Source: Lysobacterales bacterium (lineage in GTDB: Bacteria > Pseudomonadota > Gammaproteobacteria > Xanthomonadales > SZUA-5). Taken from it: a DNA stretch of 37,976 nucleotides. The stretch's first letter is position 1; every line of letters begins with the position of its first letter. A model generated the notes under the pieces. It was not told the DNA's origin. It searched no databases and saw nothing but the letters and a program-made list of their open reading frames with translations. The translations under genes and the position numbers were made by a program. Shown piece after piece: positions 4,387 to 12,157 of the stretch. The stretch lies in assembly GCA_019187485.1 (NCBI GenBank), contig JABAQR010000038.1:68407-106382 (forward strand). Reading direction: 5' to 3'.

Positions 4387-6612
4387 CTACGACTGCTGCC
4401 GATGCACCACCAGCACCACATCGGCGCGACGCACACGCTTCATCACTTCGGCGAGATGCTCACGGTTGCGGACCTCGATGGTGAACAACAGCGAGGCGCT
4501 GTGGGCATCGCGCTCCAGGTACTCGACGTTCTCGATGTTCGAGTTCGCTGCGGCGATCGCAGCCGCGACCGTGGCGAGCACGCCGGGTCGGTTGGCGACT
4601 TCGATGCGCAGTTGCACGCGGTAGTCACCGCTCACTTCGGCATCCCAGTCGACGCGCACGACACGTTCGGGCTGCTTGCGCATCTCGATGACGTTCGGAC
4701 AAGTGGTCTGGTGTACCACCAACCCCTTGCCGGCGGACAGGAAGCCGATGATCGGGTCGCCCGGGATCGGCATGCAGCAATTGCCGAAGCTGAGCACGCC
4801 GCGCTCGCTGCCGGAAATACGCACCACCTGATCGCGCGGCGACGCACCGCTCCCACCGTCGCCGCGCCACAACTGGCGCGCCACCAGTGCCGGCATGCGG
4901 GCGCCCAGCGCGATATCGGCGAGCAGTTCCTCCAGCCGCCGCAGCCGGTTCTCCTCAAGGTAGGCGTGCAGCGCGGCCTCCGGCACCGCATCCAGGGTGC
5001 CCCCGAGATCGGCGAGCGCGCGCCCGAGCATGCGGTGACCGAGCGCGACCGCATCCTCGTGCTGCAAATGCTTGAGATAGTGACGGATGGCGGTGCGCGC
5101 CTTGCTGCTGACCACGAACTCCAGCCACTGCGGCTGCGGCGCCGCGCTCGGCGCGGTGACGATCTCGACGGTCTGCCCGGACACCAGGCGCGTGCGCAGC
5201 GGGCGCAGTGCGCGGTCGATGCGCGCAGCGACCGCGTGATCGCCGACATCGGTATGCACTGCATAGGCGAAGTCGATCGCGCAGGCGTTGCGCGGCAGCG
5301 CCAGGATGCGGCCCTTGGGCGTGAACAGGTAGACCTCATCGGGAAACAGGTCGACCTTGACGTTCTCCAGAAACTCGATCGAACTGCCGGCCTGGCGCTG
5401 GCTGTCGAGCAGGCCCTGGAGCCATTCGCGCGCCCGCATCTGCGCGTTGTTCGCAGGGCTCGCTTCGGATTTGTAGACCCAGTGGGCGGCGACCCCGCGC
5501 TCGGCGACGATGTCCATGTCCTCGGTGCGGATCTGCACCTCGATCGGCGCGCCGGCCGGCCCGAACAGCACCGTGTGCAGCGACTGGTAGCCGTTCGCTT
5601 TGGGAATTGCGATGTAGTCCTTGAAGCGGTTCTCGAGCGGTTTGTACATCCCGTGCGCGGTGCCCAGCGCCCGGTAGCACTCACCGACGGTCGCAACGAT
5701 CACACGCACGCCGTAGACGTCCATGACCTCGGCGAAGGTCTTGTGGTCGCCGCGCATCTTGCGATAAATGCTGTACGGACTCTTGATGCGACTGACGATG
5801 CGCGCCTGCAAGCCGTCCTCGCGCAGGCGCTGTGCGAGCGCCTGCTCGATCTTGCCCATGATTTCGCGGCGGTTGCCGATCATCGCCTTGATGCGCGCGC
5901 CGATCACCGCGTGACGACGCGGATGCAGCACGCGGAAGCCGAGCTCCTGCAGCTCGCTCTTGAGCTTGTTCATCCCCAACCGCTGGGCGATCGGGGCATA
6001 GACGTCGAGCGTCTCGCGAGCGATCCGGCGGCGGCCGTCCGCGCTCATCGACTCCAGCGTGCGCATGTTGTGCAGACGATCGGCGAGCTTGATCAGGATG
6101 ACTCGCAAATCGCGCGCCATCGCCAGCAACATCTTGCGGAAACTCTCGGCGGTGGCGGTCTCGCGCGAGGCGAACTGCACCTTGTCGAGCTTGGTCACGC
6201 CGTCGACCAGGTCCGCCACGGTCTCGCCGAAGTCGGCGAGCAGGGTGTTCTTGGTGACCGAGGTGTCCTCGATGGTGTCGTGCAGGATCGCCGCCTGCAG
6301 GGTCTCGGCGTCGAGGTGCATCTCGGCGAGGATGCGCGCCACCGCCACCGGGTGGGTGATGTAGGGATCGCCGCTCTTGCGATTCTGCCCGCGGTGGGCA
6401 CGCTCGCTGAACGCAAAAGCTCTTTCGACCTGGCGCACCTGCTCGGCGGAAAGATAGTTCTCCAGCAATTGCCGCAGTTCGAGCATGAAGTGCGGCAACA
6501 TCTCCTGCTGCGCCGCGGGCGTGGCAGGAGCGGATGCGGCGGGCGTCAGCGCATTCACGGCTGCGACCGCCCGAACCGGCTCAAAGGTCGTCGTCGCCCT
6601 TGCCGAGACCAT
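4387..6612 (-). CDS. spoT: bifunctional (p)ppGpp synthetase/hydrolase SpoT
   Basis: SpoT balances (p)ppGpp levels during starvation. The 741 residues show the full RelA/SpoT layout: HD hydrolase domain (about 60-220; His 73 and His-Asp 111-112 in 'ILHDTIEDT'), synthetase domain ('SPYSIYRKM', then 'NGYQSLHT' and '[10 protein letters not shown]'), TGS domain ('[12 protein letters not shown]'), helical/zinc-finger region and C-terminal ACT domain (last 80 residues). Hydrolase residues look intact. The synthetase has the SpoT-type '[15 protein letters not shown]' context. The ATG at 6612 overlaps the rpoZ end by 32 bases and gives an Ala/Pro-rich N-terminal extension; E. coli SpoT would begin near residue 38, so a later start at about 6501 is possible. 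Confidence 0.97.
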
Positions 6613-7799: not shown

Positions 7800-8582
7800 A
7801 TGAACCTGCTGCGCGCCCTGTTGCCGTCGATGATGCTGGCCTCCGCGGCCGCCCACGCCGAATTGGTCGAGACCCAACTGCCGTTCGTGGTCGGCGACAG
7901 CGAATTCGCGAGCGTACTGATCCACGACTCCGCGAAGCCGGCCTCGCGCGCGATCCTGCTCACCCCGAACTGGATGGGCATTGACGCGGCCAACCTGAAG
8001 CAGGCGCGACTGGTTGCCGGGATGGGCTACACGGTTTACGTGGTCGACATGTACGGCAAGGACATCCGCCCGGCCAATACCGACGAGGCCGGCAAGGCGG
8101 CCGGGGCGGTCAAGGGCGATCCGTCGGCGCTGCGCGCGCGCATCCGCCAGGCGCTGGCCACGCTGCTGGCTCAGGAGCACGCCAAAGTCGACCCCAGGCG
8201 CGTCGGCGCGATCGGCTTCTGCTTCGGCGGCACGGTGGCGCTGGAACTGGCGCGCAGCGGTGCGCCGATCGCCGCCGTGGTGTCCTTTCACGGCGGCCTT
8301 GCGACCACCCAGCCGGCCAGCGCCGACACCCTGAAGGCCAAGGTGCTGGTGCTGCACGGCGCCGACGACCCCTGGGTGCCACCCGCTGAAGTCGAAGCGC
8401 TGCAATCGGAAATGCGCGCCGCGCGGGCGGACTGGCAACTGGTCAGCTTCGGCAACGCCGTGCATTCCTTCACCGACGTCGACGCCAGGCTGGCTGGCCA
8501 GGCGCAGTACAACGCGGTCGTGGCAGGGCGCGCCTACGCGATGATGAACGACTTCTTCAACGAGACCCTGGGCGCGCCCTGA
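7800..8582 (+). CDS. secreted dienelactone hydrolase family protein
   Basis: Alpha/beta hydrolase of 260 residues. A 20-residue signal peptide ends 'AAAHA', so the enzyme is probably periplasmic. The family's Cys-Asp-His triad is visible: Cys 141 in the nucleophile elbow 'GFCFGG', Asp 190 in 'LHGADDPWVPP', and His 222 in 'NAVHSFTD'. Related proteins hydrolyse lactones or esters; the natural substrate cannot be told from sequence, and no aromatic-degradation genes lie nearby. GGAG sits seven bases before the ATG. It converges with the kinase gene, leaving 39 bases between the stop codons. Confidence 0.92.
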   Translation: MNLLRALLPSMMLASAAAHAELVETQLPFVVGDSEFASVLIHDSAKPASRAILLTPNWMGIDAANLKQARLVAGMGYTVYVVDMYGKDIRPANTDEAGKAAGAVKGDPSALRARIRQALATLLAQEHAKVDPRRVGAIGFCFGGTVALELARSGAPIAAVVSFHGGLATTQPASADTLKAKVLVLHGADDPWVPPAEVEALQSEMRAARADWQLVSFGNAVHSFTDVDARLAGQAQYNAVVAGRAYAMMNDFFNETLGAP

Positions 8583-8621: not shown

Positions 8622-10883
8622 TCAGCGAGCGCCAGCCTGCCGCAGCAGCGCATGCGCCCGCTCGGACCACGCCGGATCGGCGGCGTCGGCGCGCGCAAAC
8701 ACATCGAGGGCAGCCTGCGCATGGCGCGCCGCCGCGGGTGCGTCGCCCGCCGCCAGCGCGACTTCGGCGACGCCCAGGTGCACATGCCCACGACCAACGT
8801 AGTCCGGCGCGAAGGCCTTTTCCGCCAGCGCCAGCGCGCGCGCCGCATCGGCGCGCGCGCGCTCGACCTGGCCAAGGCCGGCACGCAGGCGCGCAGCATT
8901 GATCAACGGTCCGGCGAGGTCGCCGTGGTCGGCGCCGAAGGCCTGCTCGCGCAGCGCGATCGCGCGCTCGAACAGCGCCAGCGCCTGCTGCGGACGCTGC
9001 CGGTCGCGATAGACGAGCGCGAAATTGTTCAGCGCCACCGCGAGCGCCACGGTCTTCTGCGGCAATGCCTGCTCCAGCGCGGCGATCGCATCGCGGTAGG
9101 CCACTTCGGACTCGTCCAGCCGGCCGACGCCCTGCAAGGCGCTGCCGAGGTTCTCCAGGCGCGCGCCGAGCACGCCGGCGTCGAGCGCCAGCGCGCGCGC
9201 ATTCGCGACCGCCGATTCGGCCAGCGGGATCGCCGCCTCGAAGCGCCCGAGGTCGTTCATCAGCGCGGCGAGGTCGTTCTCGACCTCGCCGGCGTCGTGC
9301 TGGCGACCGGGGTCGGCTGCGTACGCGGCAAGCGCGGCGCGATAGAGGCGCTCGGCCGCGTCGGTGCGCCCGCGCGTCCATTCCAGCAGCGCCTGCGCCT
9401 GCAACACCTCGGCATGGCCGGCGCTGCCGGGGGCGCGCAACGCGAGCGCGCGTTCGAGTTGCGCCTGGGCCTCGTCGAGCTGCATCAGGCTGGTGTAGGC
9501 CAGGCCAATGCCGAGGCGCACGTCGGCCTCGCTGTCGGGCTGGTCGACGAAGTGCTCGGGGATGCGCTGCACGGCCTGGTCGATGGCCTGGCGCAGGGTC
9601 GGCTCGCGGCCGCTCGCGACCGGATTGGCGTCGGTGATCAAGGCCATCAGGAAGCGGCTCGAAGCCTCGGCGCGCGCCGCCTGCGCGCTGGCCACGCGCG
9701 CCTGCTGCGCGGCGATCGCCAGACCGAGCGCGAGCGCCAGCAGGGCCGCGCTGGCGGAGGCCACCGCCAGCCGGTTGCGGCGCACGAACAAGCGCGCGCG
9801 GTACCAGGCATCGCCGCTGCGCGCCTCCACCGGGCGCAGTTCCAGCCAGCGCCGCAAGTCTTCGGCGAAGGCGCCAGCGCTGCGGTAGCGGCGGTCCACG
9901 TCGGCCGCGAGCGCCTTCAGCAGCACGCGGTCGAGGTCGCCCGCGAGGCTGCGCCTCCAACCCGGCAGCTCGCGCGGAGCCAGCGCCAGCGCGCCGCCGT
10001 CAAGGGCATTCGACGGCCGCGTCGGCACTGCGGTGCGCAGCAGCGCCTCGCGCTCGGCCAGGCTGCGCTGGCCGAAGTCGAATGGCAGGCGCCCGGTCAG
10101 CAGCTCGTGCAGCAGCAATCCGGCCGAATAGACGTCCGAGGCGATCGTCAGCGCGCGCCCGGCGAGTTGCTCGGGACTGGCGTACTGCGGCGTCAGCGGG
10201 CCGCTACCGGTGGCGGTCAGCGCGGCGCCGGTGTCGGCCAGCGACTTGGCGATCCCGAAGTCGAGCAGGCGCGCCTGGCCCTGGGCGTCGACCAGCACAT
10301 TCCCGGGCTTGATGTCGCGGTGCAGGATGAGCGCGCGGTGGGCGGCGTCGATCGCGTCCAGCACTTGCAGGAACAGGCGCACGCGCGCGCCGACGCCGAG
10401 CGCGCGCTGGCGGCACCACTGGTCGATCGCCAGGCCGTCGATGTGTTCCATGACCACCCACGGCCGGCCGTCGGCGGCGGTGCCGCCGTCGATCACGCGC
10501 GCGATGTGCGGATGCTCGAGTTGCGCGAGGAAGCGGCGCTCGGCGTGGAAGCGCGCGACCAGCTCGGGGCTGTGCAGGCCGCTCGCGAGCAGCTTCAGCG
10601 CGCCGCGCTGGACGAAGCCTGCCTGCTCGCGCTCGACCGCGTGGACTTCGCCCATGCCGCCGGCGCCAAGCCGGCGCAGCAGTCGCCAGCCGCCGATTTC
10701 GGCCGGCAGCTCGCGCGAAGTCGAGGGTTCCAGCAGGCCGTCGTCGACCGCGTGCGCGCGCAGCAGGCGCAGGGCGTCGTCGAGCACGGCGCCCTCGCCG
10801 GCCTGCGCGCGCAGGAAGGCCTCGCGATCCGGCGGCGGTCGCGTCAAGGCCTGCTCGAACAGGGCGAGTGCGCGCGCGTCCAT
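8622..10883 (-). CDS. membrane Ser/Thr protein kinase with TPR domain
   Basis: Hanks-type kinase of 753 residues. The catalytic domain spans about 65-350: glycine loop 'GAGGMGEV' at 73-80, ATP lysine 97 ('RGALKLL'), 'HRDIKPGN' with catalytic Asp 190, DFG at 208-210, and 'SPEQL' at about 236. One membrane span (about 372-392) leads to a helical C-terminal half built of TPR-like repeats, presumably periplasmic and sensing or scaffolding. All catalytic residues are present. Its ATG shares one base with the stop codon of the upstream ECF sigma gene (TGATG), so the two are translationally coupled. Such kinases are known or proposed to control their partner sigma factor by phosphorylation in place of an anti-sigma factor. 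Confidence 0.93.
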   Translation of the reverse strand: MDARALALFEQALTRPPPDREAFLRAQAGEGAVLDDALRLLRAHAVDDGLLEPSTSRELPAEIGGWRLLRRLGAGGMGEVHAVEREQAGFVQRGALKLLASGLHSPELVARFHAERRFLAQLEHPHIARVIDGGTAADGRPWVVMEHIDGLAIDQWCRQRALGVGARVRLFLQVLDAIDAAHRALILHRDIKPGNVLVDAQGQARLLDFGIAKSLADTGAALTATGSGPLTPQYASPEQLAGRALTIASDVYSAGLLLHELLTGRLPFDFGQRSLAEREALLRTAVPTRPSNALDGGALALAPRELPGWRRSLAGDLDRVLLKALAADVDRRYRSAGAFAEDLRRWLELRPVEARSGDAWYRARLFVRRNRLAVASASAALLALALGLAIAAQQARVASAQAARAEASSRFLMALITDANPVASGREPTLRQAIDQAVQRIPEHFVDQPDSEADVRLGIGLAYTSLMQLDEAQAQLERALALRAPGSAGHAEVLQAQALLEWTRGRTDAAERLYRAALAAYAADPGRQHDAGEVENDLAALMNDLGRFEAAIPLAESAVANARALALDAGVLGARLENLGSALQGVGRLDESEVAYRDAIAALEQALPQKTVALAVALNNFALVYRDRQRPQQALALFERAIALREQAFGADHGDLAGPLINAARLRAGLGQVERARADAARALALAEKAFAPDYVGRGHVHLGVAEVALAAGDAPAAARHAQAALDVFARADAADPAWSERAHALLRQAGAR

Positions 10884-11443
10884 CAGCCGCCGAGCTGTAC
10901 CCGCAGGAAGCTGCGCGCAACCTCCCAGTCGCGATGCGCGGTCATCCGCGAGACCCCGAGCAGCTCGGCGATCTCGCCCATCTCGAGCCCGGCGAAATAG
11001 CGAAGTTCGACCACCCGCGCCTTGCGCTCGTCCATCGATTCCAGTTGCTGCAGCGCCTGCTCGAGCGCCAGCGCGTCGATCCCGTCGACCGGCGTCGCGG
11101 CATCGGCGAGCGCCGCCAGCGACAGCGCGCCCGCACCGCCACCGCGCTTGTCGGCGTCGCGCCGGCGCGCATGGTCGATGAGCACCTGGCGCATGCGCCG
11201 CGCGGCCAGCGCGTAGAACTGCGCACGGTCCGCCGCCTCCAGCGCCTGCTCGCCGGCCAGCCGCAGCCAGGCCTCGTGGATCAGCGCGGTCGGGGTCAGC
11301 GAGTGCCCGGCGCGTTCGCCGCGCATCTGGCGCTCGGCCAGCGCGTGCAGTGCCTCGTAGACCAGCGGCGCGAGCGCCGCGTCTGCGGCCGGATCGCCGG
11401 CGGCGCGACGTCTCAACAATTGCGTGATCGGGCCTTGGACCAT
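10883..11443 (-). CDS. ECF-family RNA polymerase sigma factor
   Basis: A 186-residue sigma-70 family regulator with region 2 ('LTPTALIHEAWLRL', 'RAQFYALAARRMRQVLIDHARRR') and region 4 helix-turn-helix ('GLEMGEIAELLGVSRMTAHRDW'). It resembles the group often annotated TIGR02999, common in Lysobacterales and Planctomycetes and typically paired with Ser/Thr kinases instead of anti-sigma factors. It overlaps the kinase gene by one base and no anti-sigma gene is present. The ATG at 11443 begins a normal-length protein. It probably directs transcription of an unknown regulon in response to the kinase signal. Confidence 0.93.
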   Translation of the reverse strand: MVQGPITQLLRRRAAGDPAADAALAPLVYEALHALAERQMRGERAGHSLTPTALIHEAWLRLAGEQALEAADRAQFYALAARRMRQVLIDHARRRDADKRGGGAGALSLAALADAATPVDGIDALALEQALQQLESMDERKARVVELRYFAGLEMGEIAELLGVSRMTAHRDWEVARSFLRVQLGG

Positions 11444-11653
11444 GCCGCGATTCTGCCGCAGTCATGCACCGGGAGCGCGCGCAGCGACCCGGCGACCGCT
11501 CCTGCCGGGCTTGCGGGTCCACACGGCCGCCGTCGACCTGGCGCCCCCGGGAGTGGAGCAGGATTCAGCGTCCCGATTGACCGAGGTCAGGGCCGCGGCG
11601 CGCCCCGGTCGCCCAGACTTCGGTCCGCCACGTCCAACTCACGGGGTCACCCG
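11444..11653. other. divergent intergenic region, sigma factor / cytochrome
   Basis: About 210 bases holding the promoters of the ECF sigma gene (minus) and the cytochrome gene (plus). A TTGACC hexamer at about 11578 has no -10 partner at normal spacing. A GGAGCGGTCGCCGGGTCGC stretch near 11490-11510 (minus) is only vaguely REP-like. Nothing firm was found. Confidence 0.35.
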
Positions 11654-12157
11654 ATGAAACCGCTGATTCCCATTCTGGCCCTCGCGGTCCTTTCCGCTTG
11701 CAAACCACAGGATCCGGCACCGCTGCCACCCCAGGTCGGCACCAAGGCCCCGCCACCTGCGGCGGCTCCGGCGGCGCCTCCCGTGAGCACCACGGCGGAT
11801 GCACCGCCCGCCGACGCGACGACACCGGTGACCACCGACGGCGCAGCCCCAGCCAATGCAACGGCCGCCACGACCGATGCCGCCTCAACCGCTCCGGCAC
11901 CCGCTGCCATCGATGGCGCCGCGATCTACCAGCAAACCTGCGCCACCTGTCACGCCACCGGTCTCGCCGGTGCGCCAAAGCCCGGAGATACCGCCGACTG
12001 GGCCCCGCGCATCGCGCAGGGCGAGGCAGTGCTGCTGCAACACGCGCTCGCAGGCTACACCGGCAAGAAAGGCGTGATGCCGCCCAAGGGTGGATTCATG
12101 CATCTGAGCGAAGAACAGATTCGCGCAGTGATCGCGCACATGACCGCCACGCCCTGA
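11654..12157 (+). CDS. lipoprotein c-type cytochrome (c5-like)
   Basis: A 167-residue lipoprotein with a lipobox ending at Cys 16 ('AVLSAC'), a 65-residue Ala/Pro/Thr-rich tether, and a single class I cytochrome c domain. Heme is attached at 'CATCH' (Cys 96, Cys 99, His 100); Met 142 in 'GKKGVMPPKGG' is the likely sixth ligand, the pattern of cytochrome c5. It would be anchored to a membrane facing the periplasm, the long flexible linker letting the heme domain reach redox partners. No oxidase or dehydrogenase subunit is adjacent. The start at 11654 is fixed by the signal sequence, although the ribosome site is weak. Confidence 0.93.
   Translation: MKPLIPILALAVLSACKPQDPAPLPPQVGTKAPPPAAAPAAPPVSTTADAPPADATTPVTTDGAAPANATAATTDAASTAPAPAAIDGAAIYQQTCATCHATGLAGAPKPGDTADWAPRIAQGEAVLLQHALAGYTGKKGVMPPKGGFMHLSEEQIRAVIAHMTATP

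Follow-up and report, generated by a model that had tools for sequence, protein, structure and literature searches.

The stretch of DNA analysed here (37,976 nucleotides of contig JABAQR010000038.1, called the window throughout) comes from the draft genome of a Lysobacterales bacterium (3.83 Mb in 81 contigs) and carries, on its minus strand, a gene for an extracytoplasmic function (ECF) sigma factor followed by a gene for a transmembrane Ser/Thr kinase (Table 1). The sigma gene runs from an ATG at 11443 to a TGA at 10885-10883, and the kinase gene from an ATG at 10883-10881 to its end at 8622; the minus-strand junction reads ...GGCGGC-TGATG-GACGCG..., in which the A of TGA is the first base of the kinase ATG. 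An earlier reading made from the letters alone (the sequence-only reading) had claimed that the sigma gene ends within the kinase start codon, and this is borne out, with one base (10883) in common. Orthologues of both genes lie side by side in other Lysobacterales, for example in Lysobacteraceae, Tahibacter and Dokdonella (identities of 61-73% for the sigma factor and 46-71% for the kinase), and this homology excludes chance open reading frames (ORFs). The pair belongs to an already known kind of system, represented by the ECF43 pairs EcfP-PknT and EcfK-PknS.

The sigma factor matches PF07638 (E=8.5e-49, 166 bits) and TIGR02999, ‘ECF-type sigma factor’ (196.5 bits, with a cut-off of 126). Both models are broader than ECF43. 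Sigma factors of this group are described as having a Thr where the acidic DAED patch would be, with a Ser/Thr kinase gene alongside and activation through phosphorylation of that Thr (PMC8999054, PMC13147305, PMC8103513; here and below, sources given by PMC number are cited from excerpts). In an alignment with EcfK-like sequences, region 2.2 of the window sigma factor has T50-P51-T52-A53 in place of DAED. Its predicted phospho-sites (Table 1) were placed by means of two loci, L208 and L209, whose sigma factors are EcfK-like, whose adjoining kinases share 91% identity with the solved domain of PknS, and whose numbering reproduces the published EcfK sites T35, T51, T104, T106, S108 and S110; at the positions equivalent to EcfK T104 and S108 the window protein has Ala. 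A sequence search for a solved relative of this sigma factor found none.

The motif is widely conserved. The loci sampled were the higher-scoring part of longer match lists, and 155 distinct sigma factors were retained after removal of loci L001-L008 and L023-L052 (short copies), hits below 60 bits and identical tails. The acceptor Thr is kept in 148 of the 155, the four DAED columns hold no acidic residue in 135, and the column of Ser108 holds S, T, D or E in 126 (S or T in 98). In four sigma factors (L071, L096, L108 and L120) the phospho-Thr is replaced by R (three) or C (one); Asp opens the motif in three of these four, and a kinase is adjacent only in L096. They are possibly a phosphorylation-independent branch.

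The kinase matches PF00069 (E=1.4e-33, residues 68-271) and carries the expected motifs, namely the Gly-rich loop GAGGMGEV at 73, HRDIKPGN at 188, DFG at 208-210 and SPE at 236-238; of the 20 named loci L128-L147, 17 contain a complete orthologous ORF, and the catalytic residues are invariant across 17 aligned kinase sequences. The best solved relative is PknS (9EED, E=1.3e-45, aligned over residues 4-348). Several TPR models match, TPR_12 in four stretches (best 615-689). An AlphaFold2 model built with 17 sequences (mean predicted local distance difference test score, pLDDT, 86; predicted TM-score, pTM, 0.50) shows three N-terminal helices, then a kinase fold, an extended helix (371-419) and a helical-repeat half at 421-752. 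The single membrane span noted in the sequence-only reading was confirmed as the one hydrophobic stretch, residues 371-395; the TPR half that it described also stands, supported by the TPR_12 matches and the model, while its proposed role as a periplasmic sensor is drawn from analogy with PknS.

Table 1. Features of the sigma-kinase locus, in positions of the window.
Feature	Position	Strand	Basis or remark
ECF43-type sigma factor gene, 186 aa	10883..11443	minus	PF07638, TIGR02999, orthologues
Transmembrane Ser/Thr kinase gene, 753 aa	8622..10883	minus	PF00069; PknS 9EED as best solved relative
TGATG junction, base 10883 common to sigma stop and kinase start	10881..10885	minus	sequence
Codon of Thr52 (T-P-T-A, region 2.2), predicted main phospho-acceptor	11288..11290	minus	alignment with EcfK Thr51
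Codon of Ser108 (sigma2-sigma4 linker), predicted second phospho-site	11120..11122	minus	alignment with EcfK Thr106
N-terminal three-helix module, kinase residues 1-48, proposed sigma-docking element	10740..10883	minus	model; hidden Markov model (HMM)
Transmembrane span, kinase residues 371-395	9699..9773	minus	hydropathy; model helix 371-419
TPR solenoid, kinase residues 421-753	8625..9623	minus	TPR_12 matches; all-helical repeat in model
Weak -10-like CAGAAT just upstream of sigma start	11450..11455	minus	putative counterpart of the orthologues' TACAAT
Dienelactone-hydrolase-family gene	7800-8582	plus, convergent	neighbour of kinase gene
c-type cytochrome gene	11654-12157	plus, divergent	neighbour of sigma gene

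Control of the sigma factor by phosphorylation, as the sequence-only reading had proposed, is supported by the anatomy of the two proteins, by the equivalence of the sites and by the published ECF43 cases, and we put at roughly 85% the probability that the two genes encode a signalling pair of the ECF43 kind in which the kinase activates the sigma factor in this way. EcfK is directly phosphorylated by PknS (PMC13147305), and the phosphorylation of EcfP by PknT has been reviewed (PMC8999054); four residues in the EcfK linker are PknS targets as well, and one of them, T106, becomes critical once T51 is removed too (PMC13147305). By this mechanism the sigma factor as synthesised would have little affinity for core RNA polymerase, a property proposed to follow from the presence of T-P-T-A instead of the acidic DAED in region 2.2. 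A single membrane helix would anchor the kinase and leave the TPR half on the non-cytoplasmic side, and an envelope or extracellular signal would activate the kinase and lead to autophosphorylation. The kinase would then phosphorylate Thr52, and probably the linker Ser108 too, of the sigma factor made from the same mRNA, and the added charge would restore the contact with the polymerase and allow the regulon to be transcribed. The overlap or close spacing of the genes probably couples their translation and keeps sigma factor and kinase in proportion; such coupling would not be essential, since some orthologues have the two genes separated.

The association of the two genes extends well beyond the window. 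A same-strand kinase lies within 450 nt downstream of 114 of the 155 sigma factors; for the other 41, a kinase lies further off (5), some other kinase is present in the locus (20), there is no kinase (12) or the contig ends (4). The orthologue set (at least 60% identity, window sigma factor included) has 24 distinct members, of which 19 have an adjacent kinase, four are rearranged and one stops at a contig edge. The 19 adjacent junctions comprise 11 four-base overlaps, four one-base overlaps and four others; across the 114 junctions, ATGA or GTGA stands at the sigma stop in 70, with the first kinase-frame start there in 59, and TGATG occurs in seven (ten if ambiguous ones are counted). The sigma-kinase pairing is conserved, and the exact one-base overlap is not. 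In one locus of Lysobacteraceae UdeA_SF1 (L065, same place as L149; about 4942-6146, minus strand), two tandem ECF43-type sigma genes precede one kinase (a 338-codon frame), a possible one-kinase, two-sigma arrangement.

The kinase might instead reach the sigma factor by an indirect route, such as an unlinked anti-sigma factor or some other phosphorylated partner; an example of the kind is PknB, which also phosphorylates RshA for SigH (PMC13147305). The surroundings of the pair offer little for such a route. Neither flanking gene (Table 1) encodes an anti-sigma factor, nor do three further nearby genes that could be identified (one nearby ORF has no Pfam match), so the claim of the sequence-only reading that no anti-sigma gene is present holds locally; in 19 of the 24 distinct orthologues the sigma and kinase genes lie too close for another gene to fit between them. 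Two anti-sigma families were searched for in the whole genome: the FecR N-domain (PF16220) gave no match, and zf-HC2 (PF13490) gave none at E<=0.001 and one below the cut-off, at 0.003 (C7:32871), which speaks for an unlinked partner but adjoins another ECF gene. The latter region (C7:32871-33504, outside the window) has a weak PF07638 sigma match beside the weak zf-HC2 match and, from these matches, is probably an ordinary ECF/anti-sigma pair. Moreover, the window motif matches that of sigma factors that are phosphorylated directly. Indirect action is unlikely.

Coevolution of the pair in relatives, a check that the sequence-only reading had suggested, was assessed in 58 of the 114 pairs, from 15 genomes, a recognised Gly loop and start being required. 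Pairwise distances of the sigma factors correlate with those of the kinase domains (r=0.62) and of the N-terminal modules (r=0.67); when partners are shuffled within genomes the mean r falls to 0.16 and 0.20, respectively, and none of 2000 shuffles reaches either observed value. Among paralogues of single genomes (130 comparisons), the observed r is reached by 7 of 2000 shuffles for the kinase domain and by none of 2000 for the module. This strong co-divergence supports faithful pairing of sigma factor and kinase. Within genomes the raw r is 0.53 for the module and 0.36 for the kinase domain (0.45 for the best kinase window of the same length); we do not claim that the module tracks the sigma factor better than the catalytic domain does, as each of the two stands about equally far above its own shuffles. 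The same data bear on the notion that the kinase has other main substrates, for example in phage defence or general signalling, and that the sigma factor is an operon passenger. The kinase domain does match PADLOC PD-T4-6 models (best E=2e-64), as well as generic PknB-like models, but in the best 25 of 33 PADLOC matches the alignment starts no earlier than residue 61, at the generic kinase domain, and the pairs are kept across lineages and co-diverge. We consider a passenger role for the sigma factor very improbable.

A shared promoter motif upstream of the pair in relatives, also suggested by the sequence-only reading, was found in part: there is a common upstream element, which resembles a housekeeping -10 box and not an ECF autoregulatory promoter. 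Of 22 non-redundant orthologues, 12 have the motif TANAMT no more than about 60 nt ahead of the sigma gene (0.22 in shuffles), as do 24 of 71 paralogous sigma genes (1.55 expected); none of 63 stretches ahead of kinase starts has it. A strict sigma-70 consensus scan of 11380-11700 found no promoter, and none was expected. The upstream regions of 21 orthologues held no more 4-mer/spacer/4-mer combinations than shuffled ones, and a conserved two-box promoter was rejected. ECF genes are often autoregulated, and the pair could in principle be controlled mainly by transcription, with the sigma factor activating its own promoter. The housekeeping-like element, and the lack of a spaced two-box motif above shuffles, speak against such a dedicated self-promoter and suggest steady expression with control after translation; main control by autoactivation is the least probable of the explanations considered.

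Several observations weigh against activation of the sigma factor by its neighbouring kinase, or against particular steps of it. EcfK keeps its function in X. citri with the T51A change (PMC13147305), so the phospho-sites may differ in weight. The acceptor Thr is present in 111 of the 114 sigma factors with an adjacent kinase and in 37 of the 41 with no kinase directly downstream; since the latter keep it almost as often, the Thr alone is no proof of a local kinase. In three loci (L064, L139 and L141) the orthologous sigma and kinase genes lie about 0.8-1.7 kb apart, the kinase being on the opposite strand in L064 and L141 and about 1.7 kb away in L139; four ORFs tested between the separated genes have no Pfam match. 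Finally, when distant pairs are taken alone the excess is small, with 141 of 2000 shuffles reaching the observed value for the kinase domain and 9 of 2000 for the module, and because it is so much weaker there, the co-divergence is partly plain co-inheritance.

What is new here is the N-terminal three-helix module of the sigma-linked kinases, which no Pfam model matches. In the model its helices span residues 3-12, 17-28 and 32-48 (block pLDDT 92-95 for residues 1-40; pTM 0.61). The Gly loop was recognised in 101 of the 114 pairs, at a median of 89 codons past the sigma stop (5-95%: 70-111), and most of the stretches between follow the pattern LF..AL..P...R...L......D..L......LL. The window member matches no Pfam family, and 16 families match one or two each of 49 module members, with E of 0.009-0.1. 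The only significant sequence relative in the PDB is PknS itself (residues 7-88, E=1.6e-12; the next is at 0.04), and these residues are nearly all without density in the crystal (PMC13147305). The same study states that the 83-residue N-terminus of PknS ‘may play a functional role’, and in the excerpts assigns it none (PMC13147305).

The module is commoner in kinases that adjoin a sigma gene. An HMM trained on Lysobacterales was applied to 40 pairs of other lineages (a few records being classed only as ‘Proteobacteria’, ‘Gammaproteobacteria’ or ‘bacterium’), of which eight were dropped, having no recognised Gly loop or start; all 32 remaining pairs match and none of 32 shuffled sequences does. 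Judged by this profile, the module is found in ECF43-linked kinases across phyla. In four genomes, 119 kinases were inspected (all 29 of the window's own genome and 30 each of 36, 33 and 38), with an HMM built from 75 pairs whose loci lie outside those genomes, close relatives staying in the training set. Five kinases whose sigma gene was more distant or on the opposite strand were excluded from the comparison, and a sigma gene beyond about 1.5 kb would escape notice. The module is present in 40 of 51 kinases with a sigma gene directly upstream and in 22 of 63 without (Fisher P=4e-6); the own genome contributes 6 of 8 and 3 of 21, respectively. Of the 11 sigma-adjacent kinases scored as lacking it, at least one (L226) owes this to a misplaced Gly loop, as its module is detectable. 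The module probably helps the kinase to recognise its own sigma factor among the ten other such sigma factors of the genome.

The source genome gives weight to the question of recognition. It has 15 PF07638 matches, 11 of them strong, and 29 PF00069 matches, and for 3.8 Mb it would seem rich in such signalling. Of the 11 strong sigma genes, eight are immediately followed by a kinase gene, one stands at a contig edge, one has a convergent kinase and one precedes an apparent lost-kinase start. In the last (L018, contig C28; sigma 4477-5142, minus strand), an ATGA overlap is followed by a module-like kinase remnant before the next, convergent gene, and by its sequence the kinase looks lost. The convergent kinase (L237, facing the sigma factor L017 on contig C2) keeps its N-terminal module, and sigma-kinase pairing may thus survive rearrangement. 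With eleven strong sigma factors, eight of them directly followed by a kinase, in one genome, pair specificity becomes a real question, for which the module is a concrete candidate element; direct phosphorylation of a sigma factor is understood in detail in only a handful of cases.

A possible origin of the module was sought in class I anti-sigma domains (ASDIs), whose three N-terminal helices bind sigma4 and whose fourth binds sigma2 (PMC7406223). The three-helix bundle predicted for the module, as in the ASDI N-terminus, is a common shape and a weak discriminator. With hhalign, the module aligns with zf-HC2 in register (P=0.0043 with 8 sequences, 0.013 with 37). None of 58 decoy windows from TPR, kinase and sigma alignments reaches P<=0.013 (lowest 0.022), though the raw score of one, 14.7, is no lower than the 14.6 of the anti-sigma match; a 59th, which scored far better than the anti-sigma set, was set aside as a true match, as it starts at the kinase fold and matches kinase strands in the query alignment. 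As reference, FecR-N against zinc ASDIs gives P=0.0062, and zinc-less against zinc ASDIs 5.7e-11. Foldseek finds no match to the module at E<=0.001; the anti-sigma factors DdvA and RslA stand at ranks 2, 11, 17 and 21 of 46 (E 2.0-7.2, low TM-scores), and a second look at Foldseek's list with VIA-align, which excludes nothing, gives RslA Z 2.1 at rank 32. Co-divergence of sub-regions, pairing the module with sigma4 and the kinase domain with sigma2, goes weakly in the expected direction (reached by 73 of 2000 within-genome shuffles and by 227 of 2000 overall). As in ASDI factors, a three-helix piece stands ahead of a membrane span and a sensor half, and there is the weak in-register profile match; unlike them, the module has no zinc motif and no significant fold match, and a kinase domain, not a helix 4, comes after it. 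These results give faint hints of a kinship, which we treat as a lead only. It is conceivable, though rather doubtful, that ECF43-linked kinases carry at their N-terminus a built-in, zinc-less relative of the ASDIs, whose bundle would hold sigma4 while the kinase domain, in place of helix 4, would phosphorylate region 2.2. A proposal of such a kinship was not found in the titles and abstract openings searched, which did not cover Iyer et al. 2020 or the ECF reclassification. If true, the kinase would be anti-sigma factor and activator in one, joining canonical and phosphorylation-dependent ECF control, and the lack of cross-talk among eight or more pairs per cell would be explained. If the module derives from an anti-sigma domain, kinase control of ECF sigma factors would have branched off directly from control by anti-sigma factors.

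Among the closest known systems is EcfK-PknS of Xanthomonas citri, also of ECF43, with which the window pair shares gene order, adjacency, the position of the acceptor Thr (x-x-T-x) and a Ser/Thr in the linker; PknS likewise has an N-terminal helical extension, a kinase domain, one membrane span and a TPR half. They differ in the motif, Q-A-T-E in EcfK and T-P-T-A in the window, whose sigma factor therefore has no acid beside the Thr, and in the junction, GTGA in the EcfK homologues of L208 and L209 and TGATG here. EcfK sits in a type VI secretion system (T6SS) cluster, whereas a search of the window genome for VipB/TssC gave no match, so the regulon is probably not the T6SS controlled by EcfK. 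Conserved neighbours gave no further clue to the regulon: eight other window genes had no match in 27 orthologue loci, which span at most about 5-6 kb to each side. The known output of EcfP-PknT of Vibrio parahaemolyticus is polymyxin resistance. In the motif, the feature compared, EcfP (ECF43) has S-T-T-A for T-P-T-A, with all DAED acids gone and the position of the phospho-Thr kept (PMC8999054).

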